Of a stretch of DNA of 34,523 nucleotides, positions 27,583 to 34,523 are shown piece after piece. The translations under genes and the position numbers were made by a program. The stretch spans positions 240,612-275,134 of the forward strand of contig MTOV01000002.1 in assembly GCA_002011815.1 (NCBI GenBank), given 5' to 3'. The stretch comes from Nitrospirae bacterium JdFR-86. Its GTDB lineage: Bacteria > Nitrospirota > Thermodesulfovibrionia > Thermodesulfovibrionales > JdFR-86. The stretch's first letter is position 1. Each line of letters begins with the position of its first letter. The notes beneath the pieces are model-generated. The model searched no databases, was not told the origin of the DNA, and saw only the letters and a program-made list of their open reading frames with translations.

Positions 27583-27852
27583 TTGATCCAAATGGAGACT
27601 GGTTATATCTCTCTGGAGCGCACTGATCCTGAAATATTAGAAAAATCTCAGAGCAACTTGCTGTCAAAAAGAGAAGCAATCTGGGGAAGACTAGCTACGA
27701 TGAAGGCATTTACAATTCCAACACCAGAGCTTAATGGATTCTCTCTTTTTAAAAACTGGCGTGGGTTGCCAGCAAAAGAAAAGGCTCGCTCTGTTCTGGG
27801 TACAGCCCGAAGGATCATCCAGCGGGGATACTACAGAAGCAGGACTCTATGA
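27583..27852 (+). pseudogene. C-terminal gene remnant coupled to the exosortase gene
   Basis: An open frame of 89 codons (TTG start; ATG at 27592) in a different frame from the glycosyltransferase fragment just upstream. It reads like the tail of a longer protein (SQSNLLSKREAIWGRL, then LFKNWRGLPAKEKARSVLG and ARRIIQRGYYRSRTL). I do not recognise the family. It has no convincing ribosome site, but its TGA overlaps the exosortase ATG (ATGA), the tight coupling of an original operon gene. The simplest reading is the surviving 3' end of a gene whose body was lost when the cassette was exchanged. A short functional protein cannot be excluded. Confidence 0.5.
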
Positions 27853-28769
27853 AAACGAATGCCATTAAGACCGCATTACACCCCAGAAGTAACACTGTGC
27901 ATGCAAAGAGTCAGATAATGTCAAGAAACCTCTCATTTTTGTTCTTCAATATCATCACACTCGTGACCTTCTACGCACCCATGAAAGAGCTGGTACTAAC
28001 CTCATTTCATAATGAACTCTACTCACATATCATCCTTATCCCTCTGGTAAGCAGCTACCTGATTTTTTCAAGAAGGAAGACGGTGTTTTCAGAAGTGAAA
28101 TACTCTTATATCGCCGGCATTGTCTTAATAACAGCTGGCACTTTACTGTATCTTGTTGGAAGAAACAACAGGCTCGGATTCAACCAGAACGACTATCTGG
28201 CTTTTATGATGTTTTCAGCCCTGATATTCTGGACAGGTGGCTTCGTGATGCTTTACGGAATACAGTCATTTAAGAATGCCACATTTCCACTTCTATTCCT
28301 TATATTCATGATACCGATTCCAACCGTAGTGGTAAAAAGGATAATCCTTCTGCTGCAGACAAGCTCTGCCGAGACTGTCTATGGACTTTTTAAACTCACT
28401 GGTGTTCCGTTTTTACGTGAGGGGTTTACATTTTATCTTCCCCAGCTCAGTATCGAAGTTGCAGAGCAGTGCAGTGGAATCCGTTCAAGCCTGGCGCTGT
28501 TTATCACCAGCATTCTGGCAGGGCATCTCTTCCTCAAAACCGGATGGAGAAAAGTAGTTTTGATCTTATTTGTATTTCCCATCACGGTGTTTAAGAACGG
28601 TCTGCGAATTGCAACGATCTCTCTGCTTGGGGCATACGTGGATGAGAGGATTCTCCATAGCTCTCTTCACAAACAGGGCGGAATACCTTTCTTCATACTT
28701 GCGCTTGTATTTCTAACACCGGTGCTTTGGCTTCTGAAAAAAACAGAAAAAACCGGGATAAAGAAGTAA
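27849..28769 (+). CDS. xrtA: Exosortase (XrtA-type transpeptidase)
   Basis: Inner-membrane cysteine transpeptidase that recognises PEP-CTERM tails of exported proteins, cleaves them and probably attaches them to a surface glycan. The 306 residues have about eight membrane segments and the full exosortase triad: Cys208 in EVAEQCSGIRSS, Arg253 in KNGLRIATIS and His274 in LHKQGGIPFF. It overlaps the upstream remnant and is followed six bases later by PrsK, the standard partner of this exosortase type. It lacks the fused EpsI domain seen in some relatives, and no PEP-CTERM protein is visible in the window, so its substrates are elsewhere. The A subtype is inferred from neighbours. Confidence 0.93.
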   Translation: MKTNAIKTALHPRSNTVHAKSQIMSRNLSFLFFNIITLVTFYAPMKELVLTSFHNELYSHIILIPLVSSYLIFSRRKTVFSEVKYSYIAGIVLITAGTLLYLVGRNNRLGFNQNDYLAFMMFSALIFWTGGFVMLYGIQSFKNATFPLLFLIFMIPIPTVVVKRIILLLQTSSAETVYGLFKLTGVPFLREGFTFYLPQLSIEVAEQCSGIRSSLALFITSILAGHLFLKTGWRKVVLILFVFPITVFKNGLRIATISLLGAYVDERILHSSLHKQGGIPFFILALVFLTPVLWLLKKTEKTGIKK

Positions 28770-28775
28770 GCTAAG

Positions 28776-30854
28776 ATGTTTGGAACTGTTCTGTCAGCCA
28801 CTGCAGCCTTTCTCCTTTTAATGCTTTCTGGCTATAGCATGCTAAAACGCAGGGGTGCCACTGATGTTGCTTTTTGCCTTGCCACCCTGTTGCTTGCGGC
28901 AGTGGAAGTAACAGACCAGCTTCTGCTGAACGGGTCATACGATACTGTTTTACTAAAAAAGACTGCGCTTTTTCTTGAATCGCTCCTGCCCGTAGTGTTT
29001 CTGGTCTTTAGTGTTACCTACTCGCGGCAGAAGTCTGCTGAATCAATTTCTGTCTTGTGGGGCTGTCTTATGGCAGCAGCCCTGCTCTTCCCCACAGTGG
29101 TAGTTCTATTCCCGCTGGATGACTTCTTCTACTCGCCTGACCTTCAGACAGAAAAAATACTATTTCTTGGAAAAGTCGGCTACTGGTTCTATATAGGCAT
29201 GATGGTTTACTGCGTTATAGCGCTCGTAAACATAGAGTCCACTTTTACGTCTTCCTCCGGCAAAGACAGATGGAAAATGAAATACGAGGTAACAGGCATA
29301 AGCGCTGTGCTTGCAGTCCTGATTTTCTACTTCAGTCAGGGACTCCTGTACAGGACTATAAACATGAACCTGATACCCGTAAGGTCAGGTGTCCTGATAA
29401 TCGCCACTTTCCTTATAGGTTATTCAAGGTTCTTCAGGGGCAATGACGTAAAAGTCGTGGTATCAAGATATGTCCTTTACAGGTCTCTAACACTCCTTTT
29501 AATCGGACTCTATTTGCTCATTCTCGGGCTAATCGGTGAGGGGATGAGATATTTCGATGTCTCATTTAGCAAAGACCTGACAATATTTATTGCCTTTGCC
29601 AGTGGCATTGCCATGCTGCTTATCCTGCTTTCAGAGCAGTTAAGAAGAAGGGTAAAGGTGTTTATCAATAAACATTTCTACGCCCACAAGCATGACTACA
29701 AAACTGAGTGGCTCAAGTTCACCCAACGGCTTTCAGCATGCAGAACACTCACAGATGTACAGAACGTCATTCTCAACACATATAAAGAGACTTTTGGTCT
29801 TGAGGGCGCTTCCCTGTACCTCCTTGACAAAGAAAGGAGCAGATATATACTTGTAGCCACTCAGGAGATGCCTGACACTATAGCTGAACTCAAGGCATCC
29901 AAAGAGCTTATCTCCTACTTTACGGAACACAGCAGGGTGTTTAATCCCCTTGACAACGAGTATATTCCCAACGCTGAAGAAGCCCTGTTCGTCCACCACA
30001 CAGGAGCAAGGCTCATAGTTCCACTGACAGGCAACGGAAAGGTAGAAGGTATTGTAGTCTTCGGGAAACAACTGGCAAAGGAAGAGTTTATATATGAGGA
30101 TTATGACCTGATGAAGACCCTTGCAAAACAGGCTGCACTATCCATCATCAACTTCAGGCTTTCTGAAGAGCTTGCCGAGACAAGGGAAGTAGCGGCAGTA
30201 GCACGGATATCTTCGTTCGTAATCCATGACCTTAAGAACCTTGCATACACACTCTCGCTTCTCCTGGAGAATGCAGAAGACTACATTGGCGAGCCAGAGT
30301 TCCAGACTGACATGCTCGACACCATCAGGAACGCAATCACAAAAATGAAAGGGCTTATCCAGAAACTAAAGACTATTCCTGAAAAACATACATTGAATAC
30401 CGAGTTTGCAGATATAAGCCTTCTTGCAAGGGATGTAATGAAGGAGATCGAAAAAATAAACTCGGATGTCGAGTTCGTCTATAAGGGTTCGTCCACTGTT
30501 TCAATGATTGACGTAGAAGAAGTCAGAAAGGTTATACTGAACCTGATTTTGAACGCACTTGATGCAACAAACGGAAAGGGTGTAATCAAGGTTGAGGCAG
30601 GCTACAATGGAGACACGACTTACGTAAGTGTAGAGGACAGCGGATGCGGAATAGAAGAGGACTTCATCAAAAACCATCTGTTTAAACCGTTCAGAACTAC
30701 AAAAAAGAAAGGGCTTGGAATCGGACTTTACCAGTGCAAACAGATAGTAGAGGCACACGGTGGAAGAATCGAGGTAAGTAGTGAGGTCGGAAAAGGCTCT
30801 GTCTTTACAGTGTACCTGCCTGCTGAAAGAGTACCAGTGCATACAGTGCAATAA
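28776..30854 (+). CDS. prsK: PrsK, XrtA/PEP-CTERM system sensor histidine kinase
   Basis: Membrane sensor kinase of the PrsK-PrsR pair that controls PEP-CTERM protein genes. The first ~290 residues hold about eight membrane segments. A GAF domain follows at about 320-460 (LEGASLYLLDKERSRYILVAT, ARLIVPLTGNGKVEGIVVFG). Then come an unusual H-box SFVIHDLKNLAYTLSLLLEN with His484, and an ATPase domain with NLILNALDAT (N box), VEDSGCGI (G1) and GLGIGLYQC (G2). All kinase motifs are intact. Length 692 is typical. It sits between the exosortase and its response regulator. Confidence 0.95.
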   Translation: MFGTVLSATAAFLLLMLSGYSMLKRRGATDVAFCLATLLLAAVEVTDQLLLNGSYDTVLLKKTALFLESLLPVVFLVFSVTYSRQKSAESISVLWGCLMAAALLFPTVVVLFPLDDFFYSPDLQTEKILFLGKVGYWFYIGMMVYCVIALVNIESTFTSSSGKDRWKMKYEVTGISAVLAVLIFYFSQGLLYRTINMNLIPVRSGVLIIATFLIGYSRFFRGNDVKVVVSRYVLYRSLTLLLIGLYLLILGLIGEGMRYFDVSFSKDLTIFIAFASGIAMLLILLSEQLRRRVKVFINKHFYAHKHDYKTEWLKFTQRLSACRTLTDVQNVILNTYKETFGLEGASLYLLDKERSRYILVATQEMPDTIAELKASKELISYFTEHSRVFNPLDNEYIPNAEEALFVHHTGARLIVPLTGNGKVEGIVVFGKQLAKEEFIYEDYDLMKTLAKQAALSIINFRLSEELAETREVAAVARISSFVIHDLKNLAYTLSLLLENAEDYIGEPEFQTDMLDTIRNAITKMKGLIQKLKTIPEKHTLNTEFADISLLARDVMKEIEKINSDVEFVYKGSSTVSMIDVEEVRKVILNLILNALDATNGKGVIKVEAGYNGDTTYVSVEDSGCGIEEDFIKNHLFKPFRTTKKKGLGIGLYQCKQIVEAHGGRIEVSSEVGKGSVFTVYLPAERVPVHTVQ

Positions 30855-30878: not shown

Positions 30879-32240
30879 ATGGAAAAACTCCTGATTGTCG
30901 ATGACAACAACGATATAAGAAAACAGCTTAAATGGGGGCTTAGCAAAGACTACACCGTGCTTTCTGCAGGAAACGCTAAGGAGGCTCTTGCCTTTTTCAG
31001 AAAGCACCAGCCAAAGGTAGTGGTTCTTGACCTGGGTCTGCCACCCCATGAGAGCGAGTCAGCAGAAGGGTTCAGGTGTCTTGAGGAGATTCTGGCAGAT
31101 GCACCCAACACAAAGGTGATAATAATTACAGGAAATGACGAAAGAAAAACTACACTTAAGGCTGTACAGATGGGAGCTTATGACTTTTATCAAAAGCCAG
31201 TAAACCTCGACGAACTAAAGGTCATCATAAACAGGGCATTTCACCTGTATAACATTGAAGAAGAAAACCTCAGACTGCATCTTGCCCTTGACAGCAAGAC
31301 TACTGAACTGGGCGGAATGTTTGGACAGTGTTCTGAGATGCTAAAGGTCTTCTCAACCATTAGAAAGGTTGCCTCCTCCGATGTCTCTGTACTTATAGTA
31401 GGAGACAGCGGTACAGGCAAGGAGCTGGCAGCAAGGGCAATTCATTCAATGAGCCTCAGAAAAGACGGTCCTTTTGTGCCGATAAACTGCGGCGCCATAC
31501 CTGAAAGCCTGCTTGAGTCAGAACTCTTCGGGCATGAAAAAGGTGCATTCACCGGCGCGCATACACAACTGCAAGGCAAGTTTGAATATGCACATAAAGG
31601 GACTCTCTTTCTTGACGAGATAGGAGAACTGCCAGCCAACCTGCAGGTAAAACTGCTCAGGTTTCTGCAGGAAAAGACCATCCAGCGGGTAGGCGGCAGA
31701 GAGGACATCTATGTGGATGCAAGAATAATCGCCGCTACAAATATTGAAATATCAAAGGCAATACAGGAAGGGAAATTCAGAGAGGATCTTTACTACAGGA
31801 TAGGGGTCATAACTCTGAACCTGCCAAAACTGAGTCAGCGCAAAGGCGATATAATGCTGCTTTCAAACCTCTTTCTCAGGAAGTTCAGTGCAGAGTTCGG
31901 GAAAAAGATTAAAGGGTTCAGCGCATCAGCAGTAGAACTGCTTGAGTCGTACAATTGGCCAGGCAATGTAAGAGAGCTCGAAAACAGAATACAAAGAGCT
32001 GTAATTATGTCTGAGTCTTCAATAATAGAGCCACATGACCTTGGATTTACAGAAAAGCCAGCGAGACAAAAGGTTACTTTCCAAAACGGCATGACACTTA
32101 AAGAGGCAAGGGACAAGGTCGAAAAAGAGATGATAATATCTGCTGTCGAAAGACACAATGGCAATATAGCAAAGGCTGCTGTAGAACTCGGTATCAGCAG
32201 ACCAACCTTATACGACCTTATGAGAAAGCACGGCATTTAA
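30879..32240 (+). CDS. prsR: PrsR, sigma-54-dependent response regulator
   Basis: NtrC-type activator partnered with PrsK. The receiver domain has the acidic pair at residues 8-9 (LLIVDDN) and phospho-acceptor Asp51 (VVVLDLGLPP). The AAA+ domain has Walker A GDSGTGKE at about 175, the sigma-54 contact loop GAFTGA at about 221-226, and GTLFLDEIGELP as Walker B. A Fis-type helix-turn-helix ends the protein (GNIAKAAVELGISRPTLYDL). Length 453. It would act on -24/-12 promoters such as the candidate at 18258. The gene ends 44 bases from a convergent lipoprotein gene. Confidence 0.96.
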   Translation: MEKLLIVDDNNDIRKQLKWGLSKDYTVLSAGNAKEALAFFRKHQPKVVVLDLGLPPHESESAEGFRCLEEILADAPNTKVIIITGNDERKTTLKAVQMGAYDFYQKPVNLDELKVIINRAFHLYNIEEENLRLHLALDSKTTELGGMFGQCSEMLKVFSTIRKVASSDVSVLIVGDSGTGKELAARAIHSMSLRKDGPFVPINCGAIPESLLESELFGHEKGAFTGAHTQLQGKFEYAHKGTLFLDEIGELPANLQVKLLRFLQEKTIQRVGGREDIYVDARIIAATNIEISKAIQEGKFREDLYYRIGVITLNLPKLSQRKGDIMLLSNLFLRKFSAEFGKKIKGFSASAVELLESYNWPGNVRELENRIQRAVIMSESSIIEPHDLGFTEKPARQKVTFQNGMTLKEARDKVEKEMIISAVERHNGNIAKAAVELGISRPTLYDLMRKHGI

Positions 32241-32284: not shown

Positions 32285-32662
32285 TTAATTACAATACACC
32301 TCAGTCTCATAATTATCAGGGTATCTTACCTCGTTGGAATACTTACTTTCATTACCATGCGCATCATAAGCTGTTACAGCAAAATAATATGTGCCCGACG
32401 TGAGGTTACTGATAGTATAGGTAGTTGTGTTGCCCACAATAACTATCGGTTCTCCATAACTACAAGACGACGTTCCGTAATATATCTTATAGCCTGCGAG
32501 GTCTGTTAGGGCAGTTCCATCCTCATTTTCAGTAGGTGCATCCCACACCAACTTCACACTGAGAGTATTACTGTCACTACTACCACTAGTACTGTCGCCG
32601 CCTCCTCCACAGCCTGCCACCACCAGTAAAAATACCAGAATAAATACTCCTTTATGCCACAC
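32285..32662 (-). CDS. Small fibronectin type III lipoprotein
   Basis: A 125-residue secreted lipoprotein. It starts at GTG with AAGGGG upstream. Residues 1-17 are a lipoprotein signal peptide with lipobox VVAG-Cys18, followed by a glycine/serine linker, then one fibronectin type III domain at about 35-115 (LVWDAPTENEDG, AGYKIYYGTSS, YTISNLTSGTYYFAVTAYDAHGNES, with YSNEV as the last strand). It converges on prsR and is not obviously part of the operon. It may bind a polymer or protein at the cell surface; function is not known. Confidence 0.85.
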   Translation of the reverse strand: MWHKGVFILVFLLVVAGCGGGGDSTSGSSDSNTLSVKLVWDAPTENEDGTALTDLAGYKIYYGTSSCSYGEPIVIVGNTTTYTISNLTSGTYYFAVTAYDAHGNESKYSNEVRYPDNYETEVYCN

Positions 32663-32786: not shown

Positions 32787-34523
32787 TCATAGTAATTTCA
32801 GTGTACTTTCGAGGGCTTTTACGACCTTCGGGTCATAGAGCTTGCCTGCCCCTTTCTTAATCTCCTGCAGTGCCTTCTCACGCGTGAACGCTTTTCTGTA
32901 GGGTCTTTTCGCAGTCATTGCGCAGAAGGCATCTACCACAGAGAGAACCCTTGAGAGGAAAGGTATCTGATTGCCTTTCAAGCCGTCAGGGTATCCAGTG
33001 CCGTCGTATCTTTCATGGTGGTGAAGTATTGCCTTCTTGACATCCTCTGAGAACTCAAAACTATTCAGCAAGTCGAGCGTGGTATACGGATGGACTTTTA
33101 ACGTGCGGGTCTCCATAGAGGAAAGTTTCTGCTTTTTCTTAAGCACGCTCTCGTCAATAAGTGTAAGCCCCAGATCATAAATCATGGATATATAGAGTGC
33201 CAACCTTTTGTCTTCTTCTTTTGCATCAAGCCTGTTCATTATTTCAATCATCAGGTTGGGGAAGAGGGCGTCTTTTTTATGGTACTTTTTCTCGGCATTA
33301 AGCAGACCGTCAAAAGATGTAACAAAGTGCTTGAGGCTATCTTCTCTGTACTTGCCTGTATATAGTCCTTCTATGAAGCGGGAAACCCTTTCGCTTAACA
33401 CCGAAGCTATATGAAGGTCTTTGCTTGTGAACGGCTCTGACGAAACTTTATTATTCAGATTAAGCACTCCTATTACCTTATCCTGCATTTTCAACGGCAG
33501 GCAGAGGAGAGACTTGGTGTTGTAATGCGGCATGTTTCTTTTTCCGAAACGAGGGTCGCTTTCTATGTTTTCTATTAACAGCGGAGCACCCTCAAGTGCA
33601 ACCCAGCCAGCGATTCTGTCGCCAAACCTTATTCTTGTCCGCTTTACAATGTTCTCGTCCAGCCCTCTGGCACTCCTGATTGAAAGCTCACCAGTAAGCT
33701 CATCAAGAAGCATTATAGAGCATGTATTCACGCCAAGCAGTTCTGAAATGAATTCGATAAACATCTCCATTGTTGTGTCAATGACCGCTTCTATCTTCTG
33801 TCTTGTACTCTTTGGAATCTTGATGGAGACGACCAAAGTGCTGTTGGTGTCTTCTACATTCAGCTCCCACCTGTGAAGCTCTGCTACCTTCCATGCAAGA
33901 TAGAGCTTTAACCTTTCTTCAGACTGGTCTTTTTGAAGTGTATGCCTTGAGTTGAAAAGGTAAGGCAGTATGGTATCTGGCATTCTTCTTGGGATAGTTA
34001 GATTTACCAGCACGGAGTCGCTCTCCTTGACATTGATTTTTATGATGTCATCATCCTCAAGGTAATAACTCAAACTCTCTATCAGATTGATAAAGAGCTG
34101 GAGGACTCTTATCTTGTCTCCTACAATGTCTGATGTATCTTCTTTAACATTCAGCTGTACTTGTATATTCTTTTTTGCAAGTATGCTTTTTAGCAGTTTT
34201 GAGTTCACTGTTTCTTCCAAAAGCTCTGGAAGACTTATTATGGACTTTGTGACGATTCGTGCTTCATCCTCAAGCCTTAGGAAATCAAGCAGGTTTTCAA
34301 CGATGGAAACAAGTTTGTCTGTTTCCTCTGCGATAATGTCATAGAATTCCTTTTGTTCGCTTTTAGGCAGACCCCCAGCCTGACGTAGGTAATATACAGC
34401 GCCTTTAATCGAGTTAAGCGGGGTGCGTAGTTCGTGTGATATATAAGTAAGGGACTCGGTTTTTACGACATCGGCTTCTATAAGCTTTCTGTTTATTGTC
34501 TCAAGCTCGGCAGCGTTTACCCT
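32787..34523 (-). CDS. HisKA / degenerate ATPase / GAF / HD-GYP signalling protein, 5' truncated
   Basis: The 3' 578 codons of a gene that begins beyond the window; the TTG at 34220 is internal. Visible residue 30 is the histidine of an intact HisKA box (SLTYISHELRTPLNSIKGA). The next domain has ATPase-like shape (DKIRVLQLFINLIESL) but lacks the G1 and G2 glycine boxes (TIPRRMPDTILPYLF, SEERLKLYLAWKVAELHRWEL), so ATP binding is doubtful. A GAF domain follows (CSIMLLDELTGELSIRSARG, SLLCLPLKMQDKVIGVLNL). The C-terminal HD-GYP domain keeps HHERYDGTGYPDGL, but the HD motif reads IYDLGL in place of LHDIGK, so c-di-GMP hydrolysis is uncertain. It could act as a signal-binding scaffold. Confidence 0.88.
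   Translation of the reverse strand, partial: RVNAAELETINRKLIEADVVKTESLTYISHELRTPLNSIKGAVYYLRQAGGLPKSEQKEFYDIIAEETDKLVSIVENLLDFLRLEDEARIVTKSIISLPELLEETVNSKLLKSILAKKNIQVQLNVKEDTSDIVGDKIRVLQLFINLIESLSYYLEDDDIIKINVKESDSVLVNLTIPRRMPDTILPYLFNSRHTLQKDQSEERLKLYLAWKVAELHRWELNVEDTNSTLVVSIKIPKSTRQKIEAVIDTTMEMFIEFISELLGVNTCSIMLLDELTGELSIRSARGLDENIVKRTRIRFGDRIAGWVALEGAPLLIENIESDPRFGKRNMPHYNTKSLLCLPLKMQDKVIGVLNLNNKVSSEPFTSKDLHIASVLSERVSRFIEGLYTGKYREDSLKHFVTSFDGLLNAEKKYHKKDALFPNLMIEIMNRLDAKEEDKRLALYISMIYDLGLTLIDESVLKKKQKLSSMETRTLKVHPYTTLDLLNSFEFSEDVKKAILHHHERYDGTGYPDGLKGNQIPFLSRVLSVVDAFCAMTAKRPYRKAFTREKALQEIKKGAGKLYDPKVVKALESTLKLL

Follow-up and report, generated by a model that had tools for sequence, protein, structure and literature searches.

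The last gene of the stretch of DNA analysed here (the window, 34,523 nucleotides of contig MTOV01000002.1 of Nitrospirae bacterium JdFR-86) encodes a histidine kinase-like protein with a C-terminal HD-GYP domain. As the catalytic parts of both have been lost, the surfaces expected to bind a messenger and to accept phosphate have been kept, and the gene lies beside the regulator of a surface-slime (exopolysaccharide) locus, which apparently activates it, the protein is probably a sensor in the slime circuit and not an enzyme. The more specific reading of the sequence comparisons, that it is a conserved pseudoenzyme switch, a c-di-GMP-responsive pseudokinase within a PrsR/sigma54 circuit, is given an even chance.

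The gene extends 513 nt beyond the window end and the full-length protein has 749 aa (L036:1399-3648, minus strand; window 32787 to about 35036), with the domain order GAF–HisKA–pseudo-HATPase–GAF–HD-GYP. The region beyond the window end holds the coding sequence of the first GAF domain as well as the sigma54 element and two sites resembling the PEP-CTERM box. The earlier note had seen kinase, GAF and phosphodiesterase domains in one chain, to which the full protein adds the N-terminal GAF domain. Pfam found two GAF domains, HisKA (1.5e-15) and HD_5 (4.4e-35) in the full protein; HATPase_c was not reported on it at E<=0.01 and gave only E=0.18, under the Pfam cut-off, on the window part. A structure model covering the window part only (mean pLDDT 69.8, pTM 0.52) resembled the kinase structures HK853, ZraS, DivL (4q20) and RetS. 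Its quality was low across the HD-GYP part (pLDDT block means 30-53, residues 451-520), too low to judge the fold of that domain. Genes for tRNA-Glu and tRNA-Gln lie upstream of the pseudokinase gene (L036:4151-4315).

Homologues were collected by protein search, with matches in 36 of 199 relatives at E<=1e-100. A phylum-wide sample of 395 genomes, which overlaps the first set, gave matches in 37 at E<=1e-80, and one locus was added from the named assembly GEOBC. The resulting alignment held 49 sequences, including a second copy in G162. The gene was not found in any of the five same-family genomes searched. The record titled Geobacteraceae bacterium GEOBC (L032) carries close relatives of both the pseudokinase gene and prsR, which might reflect a misassigned taxonomy or a transfer of the locus.

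Table 1 Features of the pseudokinase gene and its neighbours, in window positions
Feature	Position	Strand	Basis or remark
Exosortase of polysaccharide locus	27849..28769	+	TIGR02602 above cut-off
prsK, histidine kinase of PEP-CTERM system	28776..30854	+	TIGR02916; HATPase_c 5.6e-25
prsR, sigma54-dependent response regulator of PEP-CTERM system	30879..32240	+	TIGR02915, 679.5 bits vs cut-off 502.6
Small fn3-domain putative lipoprotein, between pseudokinase gene and prsR	32285..32662	-	Pfam fn3 5.9e-06; lipoprotein by eye
Pseudokinase/pseudo-HD-GYP gene, in-window part (578/749 aa)	32787..34523	-	ORF open at window end
HD-GYP (HD_5) domain without H-site half	32823..33266	-	Pfam HD_5 3.1e-35 (window part); residue table
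Retained HHE...DG.GYP	32988..33020	-	HHE and GYP invariant 43/43
YDLGL where HDIGK expected	33165..33179	-	residue table, 43 HD domains
Second GAF domain	33369..33782	-	Pfam GAF
Pseudo-HATPase domain, without G1/G2 glycines or magnesium-Asn	33801..34262	-	sequence boxes; modelled fold still kinase-like
HisKA (DHp) domain, phospho-accepting His intact (codon 34434-34436)	34266..34463	-	Pfam HisKA

The two catalytic domains

The phospho-accepting histidine is present in all 48 homologues with a readable DHp domain, and its surroundings, SHELRTP in the JdFR-86 protein, are nearly invariant; in the 49th row (G204) it sits in another frame, upstream of a frameshift. That this histidine is kept and that the ATPase domain lacks both glycine boxes had been noticed in the window sequence, and both observations are borne out. 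In JdFR-86 IPRRMP stands at the G1 box and ERLKLYLA at the G2 box, the glycines missing from both, and the magnesium Asn of the N-box is also replaced, by Ser. Across the family the G1 Asp is kept in 1/49 sequences and the G2 GxG in 4/49, all belonging to the outer clade G203/G204/G212/G220, and the second Asn of the N-box in 6/49. The replacements are themselves conserved (VGDK, LKLYLA, HRW), with Trp in place of the second Gly of HGG in 38/49 and Lys or Arg at the G2 glycine in 42/49. For nine of eleven chosen homologue pairs dN/dS is at most 0.35 in every domain; of the remaining two, one has saturated dS and the other gives 0.83 for DHp at a dS of 0.04, with GAF1 undefined. Because these values extend to all domains, the pseudo-HATPase domain is, to judge from its sequence, remodelled and not abandoned.

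Such a protein could be a phosphotransferase like PhyT, Spo0B or ChpT, its DHp histidine relaying phosphate between regulators and its HD-GYP domain a ligand-free structural or dimerising leftover. The nearly invariant histidine and SHELRTP beside ruined ATPase boxes are what this would predict, and degenerate kinases turned phosphotransferases are documented; they share with the family the kinase fold, the retained His and the degenerate catalytic domain (PMC5898713), whereas the account given there mentions no HD-GYP domain and the family His-box is still of the standard HisKA type. A clade without HD-GYP also survives under selection, adjoining an HK-NtrC pair. A leftover, however, would have no need of the nucleotide-side residues of HD-GYP, which are invariant in 43/43 domains, Tyr285 and Ile294 included, and in seven loci the pseudokinase gene has a diguanylate cyclase gene next to it, so that this explanation is considered credible but unlikely. 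A distinctly unlikely one is a reverse sensor like DivL, in which the kinase fold docks a phosphorylated regulator and signals to another kinase without phosphate chemistry of its own. The match of the model to DivL and RetS and the established role of the repurposed DivL kinase fold as a regulator sensor (PMC4211667) favour it, but DivL has exchanged its His for Tyr, the very residue that the pseudokinase family retains in every readable sequence.

The HD-GYP half was compared over 43 full domains, the six homologues without one (G173 and G068, cut at contig ends; G248, G219, G211 and G162b, a domain-less clade) being left out. Columns are named by PmGH numbering, assigned by motif matching via a paralogue and supported by a phmmer alignment to 4mcw. 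In PmGH the H-site lies near H221 and the G-site near Y285, with E185 bridging M and H and D222 bridging G and M. Exchanging H189, H221, K225 or D308 for alanine impaired activity, and the c-di-GMP-bound subunit carried G-site iron only (PMC4159591). The earlier note had read the HD histidine as lost (YDLGL) and HHE...DG.GYP as kept. Both stand, and K225, H189 and D308 are additional losses: the JdFR-86 protein has neither the HD histidine nor the catalytic Lys (K225), the His at H189 or D308, and has HHE, DGTGYP and the later Asp. In the family the HD His column holds Tyr in 38 domains, His in 4 and Phe in 1; the HDxxK lysine is found in 0/43, the H189 column is Lys in 34 and His in 3, and the D308 column is Asp in 1/43. 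Each of H189, H221, K225 and D308 is intact in 13/14 own-genome HD-GYP paralogues. An alternative histidine at the metal site, raised in the earlier note, was looked for: the H189 column is mostly Lys, and no new conserved His was found.

On the other side of the site D222, H250, H276, H277, E278, G284, Y285, P286, I294, D305 and A309 are invariant (43/43), and of the nucleotide-contact residues R314 is present in 37/43 and the K317 position is Arg or Lys in 37/43. E185 and D183 were not counted among the lost ligands, E185 being mostly missing in the own-genome paralogues too and the D183 column perhaps misaligned. Two of these paralogues are unusual: one (G000:C14:40081-40575, in L042) reads KDIGK with the upstream His replaced and HHE and GYP kept, and another (C12:36030) reads HDIGF.

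Read against PmGH, the H-site half of the family domain is gone and the GYP/nucleotide half kept, a pattern expected of a c-di-GMP receptor. It is very likely that kinase and phosphodiesterase activities have both been lost, and somewhat probable that the HD-GYP domain binds c-di-GMP. The JdFR-86 genome has 14 further HD_5 places and 11 GGDEF places (10 strong), so c-di-GMP signalling is very probably present in the organism. The suggestion of "a receptor or scaffold rather than an enzyme" can thus be divided: half-site retention and cyclase neighbours favour the receptor, and the term scaffold suits the kinase half less well, since every readable DHp domain still has its phospho-accepting His. 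Residual hydrolysis is improbable. Asp222, His250, His276, His277 and Asp305 might still hold some metal in a reduced centre, with Tyr and Lys substituting for the missing ligands to give a weakly active phosphodiesterase, but the four residues each needed in PmGH (PMC4159591) are nearly always lost together, and Lys225 is in no member.

Several characterised proteins resemble parts of this arrangement. DvhD of Desulfovibrio vulgaris has a degenerate HD-GYP domain, with metal ligands lost as in the pseudokinase family, that binds c-di-GMP without hydrolysis and changes its dimer contacts (PMC13090378). It differs in having lost both HD and HH (SQ, Met/Asn), whereas the family keeps Asp222 and both His and so has more ligands left, and in its PAS and periplasmic domains and lack of a kinase (PMC13090378). 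A solved chain, 9rbz, matched the JdFR-86 protein by sequence and is presumably DvhD, given its SQ motif. SgmT of Myxococcus xanthus is likewise a GAF-kinase protein in which a C-terminal dead c-di-GMP-turnover domain serves as receptor, in extracellular matrix control; unlike the family it is an active hybrid kinase, its receptor domain is GGDEF, and its regulator DigR has an Xre-type HTH and is not a sigma54 protein (PMC3509222). PA2572 of Pseudomonas aeruginosa has an inactive variant HD-GYP (YN-GYP) with a regulatory role, in a REC-YN-GYP response regulator described without kinase or GAF domains (PMC3411652).

Selection and the history of the losses

Intact motifs among orthologues, which the earlier note took as the mark of recent decay, were found for the HD His in 4/43 domains and for the HD-GYP Lys in none, and an intact ATPase domain only in the frameshifted outer member G204. 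As the intact motifs are confined to the outer relatives and G118, and the Lys is in 0/43, the decay is not recent. The dN/dS values place the gene under purifying selection, and since the same losses recur across the family they are not due to chance. The losses are, on these comparisons, old and fixed; the family-wide residue losses and dN/dS rule out recent decay. That the gene is decaying without function, as a patchy distribution (36/199 relatives) and one frameshifted copy (G204) might suggest, is highly improbable in view of purifying selection in every domain, sites invariant in 43/43 and a conserved promoter element.

A maximum-likelihood tree was rooted on G203/G204/G212/G220, the root being assumed. 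Carriers of the HD His are G203, G212 and G220, in the outer clade with G204, and G118, which reads HDLGL and is nested among Tyr members. G204 combines YDLGL with an intact ATPase domain (Pfam 1e-28), which means that the HD loss did not have to follow the kinase loss. The frameshift in this homologue (L122:6110-9000), between the HisKA and ATPase parts, may be an assembly error or real. The four HD-GYP-less members form a single clade (99/97), in which c-di-GMP sensing would therefore be dispensable.

Gene neighbourhood and promoter

The in-window neighbour of the pseudokinase gene is an exosortase/exopolysaccharide locus ending in the exosortase, prsK and prsR. The exosortase scores best as XrtC (190 bits, cut-off 300) and is under the XrtA cut-off, in a locus otherwise of XrtA type. 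BLAST matches of the fn3 putative lipoprotein (49-68% identity) recur near the pseudokinase gene in several relatives. In JdFR-86 the pseudokinase gene and prsR are convergent and not co-transcribed, and ten of the 49 loci, JdFR-86 included, have a convergent PrsR relative as neighbour (at least 70% over the ATPase part). Up to a distance of 5 kb, 21/49 loci (with uneven flanks) have an NtrC-type regulator and 28/49 have none, some flanks of the latter being short. Where at least 2.5 kb is available to either side, 10 of 28 loci have one within 2.5 kb, whereas about 5% would be expected (binomial 8e-7, treating as independent loci that are not); where 5 kb is available to either side, 8/23 loci have one within 5 kb, against about 9%, the expected rate being derived from 17 strong sigma54-activator genes in the JdFR-86 genome. 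In G248, G211 and G162b the one-strand order is HK, NtrC, pseudokinase, the last two genes 18 to 58 nt apart.

The locus had been called c-di-GMP-relevant. Gene order supports this in seven relatives (L084, L087, L102, L104, L106, L082 and L097, of the 49 loci), where a GAF-GGDEF protein with an intact-looking GGEEF is encoded directly upstream on the same strand, with a gap of 23 to 363 nt; in JdFR-86, with no GGDEF (diguanylate cyclase) gene adjacent to the pseudokinase gene, it is something that we infer. In eight loci (L087, L090, L091, L094, L102, L104, L105 and L106) the pseudokinase gene has a gene for a Crp-type regulator immediately downstream on its own strand, the spacing ranging from an overlap to 197 nt, and seven loci have a polysaccharide export gene no more than about 2 kb away. 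PrsK occurs in 14 of the 36 genomes carrying the pseudokinase gene, above chance (Fisher p 2e-4), and is missing from the other 22; with so partial an overlap a strict partnership with PrsK was rejected.

Upstream regions were scanned for GG-N10-GC with sigma54 consensus letters (score 6 or more), 48 or 47 of them being long enough to be counted. A sigma54 element was found in 22/47 pseudokinase upstream regions and in 30/388 other genes of the same loci (Fisher 1e-10), several of these 30 looking like real targets, e.g. export and PEP-CTERM-like genes. The signal emerged only through this comparison of homologues: the window contained 0 matches to the consensus and L036 contained 2, not clearly above shuffles. 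Near-perfect elements precede export genes near the homologues in L083, L086, L097, L101 and L107. This suggests that polysaccharide export belongs to the same sigma54 regulon as the pseudokinase gene.

The upstream region in JdFR-86 also contains TGTAAAGATTTCCAACA without mismatch, 73 nt ahead of the sigma54 element, and a second copy, with one mismatch, further upstream, the nearer copy being reversed in orientation. In six genomes TGTAAAGATTTCCAACA, or a sequence one letter off, stands exactly 90 nt before the start of the element; with one mismatch allowed it occurs once per genome in those six, five of them of one genus, each time before the pseudokinase gene. More distant members have one or two related copies. 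Compared by description, the reverse complement of TGTAAAGATTTCCAACA, 17 nt with a TTTACA end, agrees with motif 1 of the PEP-CTERM regulon, which is paired with a sigma54 element across a spacer of 32-92 nt (PMC1569441); the JdFR-86 spacer falls inside that range. No box was found within the window because the start of the pseudokinase gene lies outside it.

A loose form of the box has 8 places in the JdFR-86 genome (control 5). The pseudokinase gene (two copies) and one PEP-CTERM place have a sigma54 element, and the five others have none scoring 6 or more within 260 nt; two PEP-CTERM genes in the genome are preceded by both a box of this kind and a sigma54 element. PEP-CTERM genes of G074 are fronted by the box TGTCGGAAAACTTTACA, as is the cyclase ahead of the pseudokinase gene. 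Of 18 places with box and sigma54 element in four genomes, at least 4 of them chance-like by box letters, 6 precede genes for PEP-CTERM-tailed proteins and 1 precedes the cyclase gene in a cyclase-pseudokinase pair. Given the element revealed by comparing homologues and the box shared with PEP-CTERM genes, transcription of the pseudokinase gene very probably depends on sigma54 and a PrsR-type activator, in JdFR-86 and its closest matches at least.

A candidate c-di-GMP input to PrsK-PrsR

These observations can be joined in a mechanism. PrsR with sigma54 would make the protein, as the promoter comparison suggests, and c-di-GMP or a relative would be bound by the YD-GYP pocket without hydrolysis, for which half-site retention and the neighbouring cyclases argue. 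The GAF domains may bind further ligands. By the precedent of DvhD, SgmT and PhyT, the dimer would change upon c-di-GMP binding, and the DHp His might relay or drain the phosphate of the neighbouring NtrC-type regulator, or dock a partner. The partner system would be PrsK-PrsR in JdFR-86 and another NtrC-type pair in relatives, making the protein a c-di-GMP-informed feedback component of exopolysaccharide/PEP-CTERM expression. Action on an NtrC-type regulator, argued by analogy, has slightly less than an even chance. Several observations weigh against the mechanism: the five same-family genomes have no copy of the gene, 22 of the 36 carriers have no PrsK, 28 of the 49 loci show no NtrC-type regulator up to 5 kb away, the JdFR-86 gene is convergent with prsR and has no adjacent cyclase, and one clade does without HD-GYP. 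Tentative, and rather doubtful as a whole, is the fullest version: an undescribed phylum-wide family that would unite in one chain a kinase and a phosphodiesterase, both dead, the first with its phospho-acceptor and the second with its c-di-GMP pocket still live, and that, made by PrsR/sigma54 (in some relatives from a cyclase-pseudokinase operon with the same promoter type), would gate PrsR phosphorylation by c-di-GMP in a feedback loop.

The PEP-CTERM/PrsK-PrsR regulon resembles the present case in its 17-nt TTTACA-ending motif and sigma54 element, and its regulator adjoins the pseudokinase gene; it differs in that, as described in PMC1569441, no HD-GYP or c-di-GMP component is mentioned. 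No paper linking PEP-CTERM to HD-GYP and exosortase came up in a literature search.

As a natural experiment, the family shows how a pseudoenzyme evolves, with one side of a metal site lost and the other fixed across the phylum. The ATPase domain erodes stepwise, from G204 to G203 to the remaining members, and one clade then sheds HD-GYP, keeping the kinase half in an operon with an NtrC-type pair. The stimulus of PrsK has been termed obscure since its naming (PMC1569441). The family offers a concrete candidate for a c-di-GMP input to PrsK-PrsR and, if the mechanism is true, would supply the c-di-GMP input so far missing from the PEP-CTERM/exosortase system.
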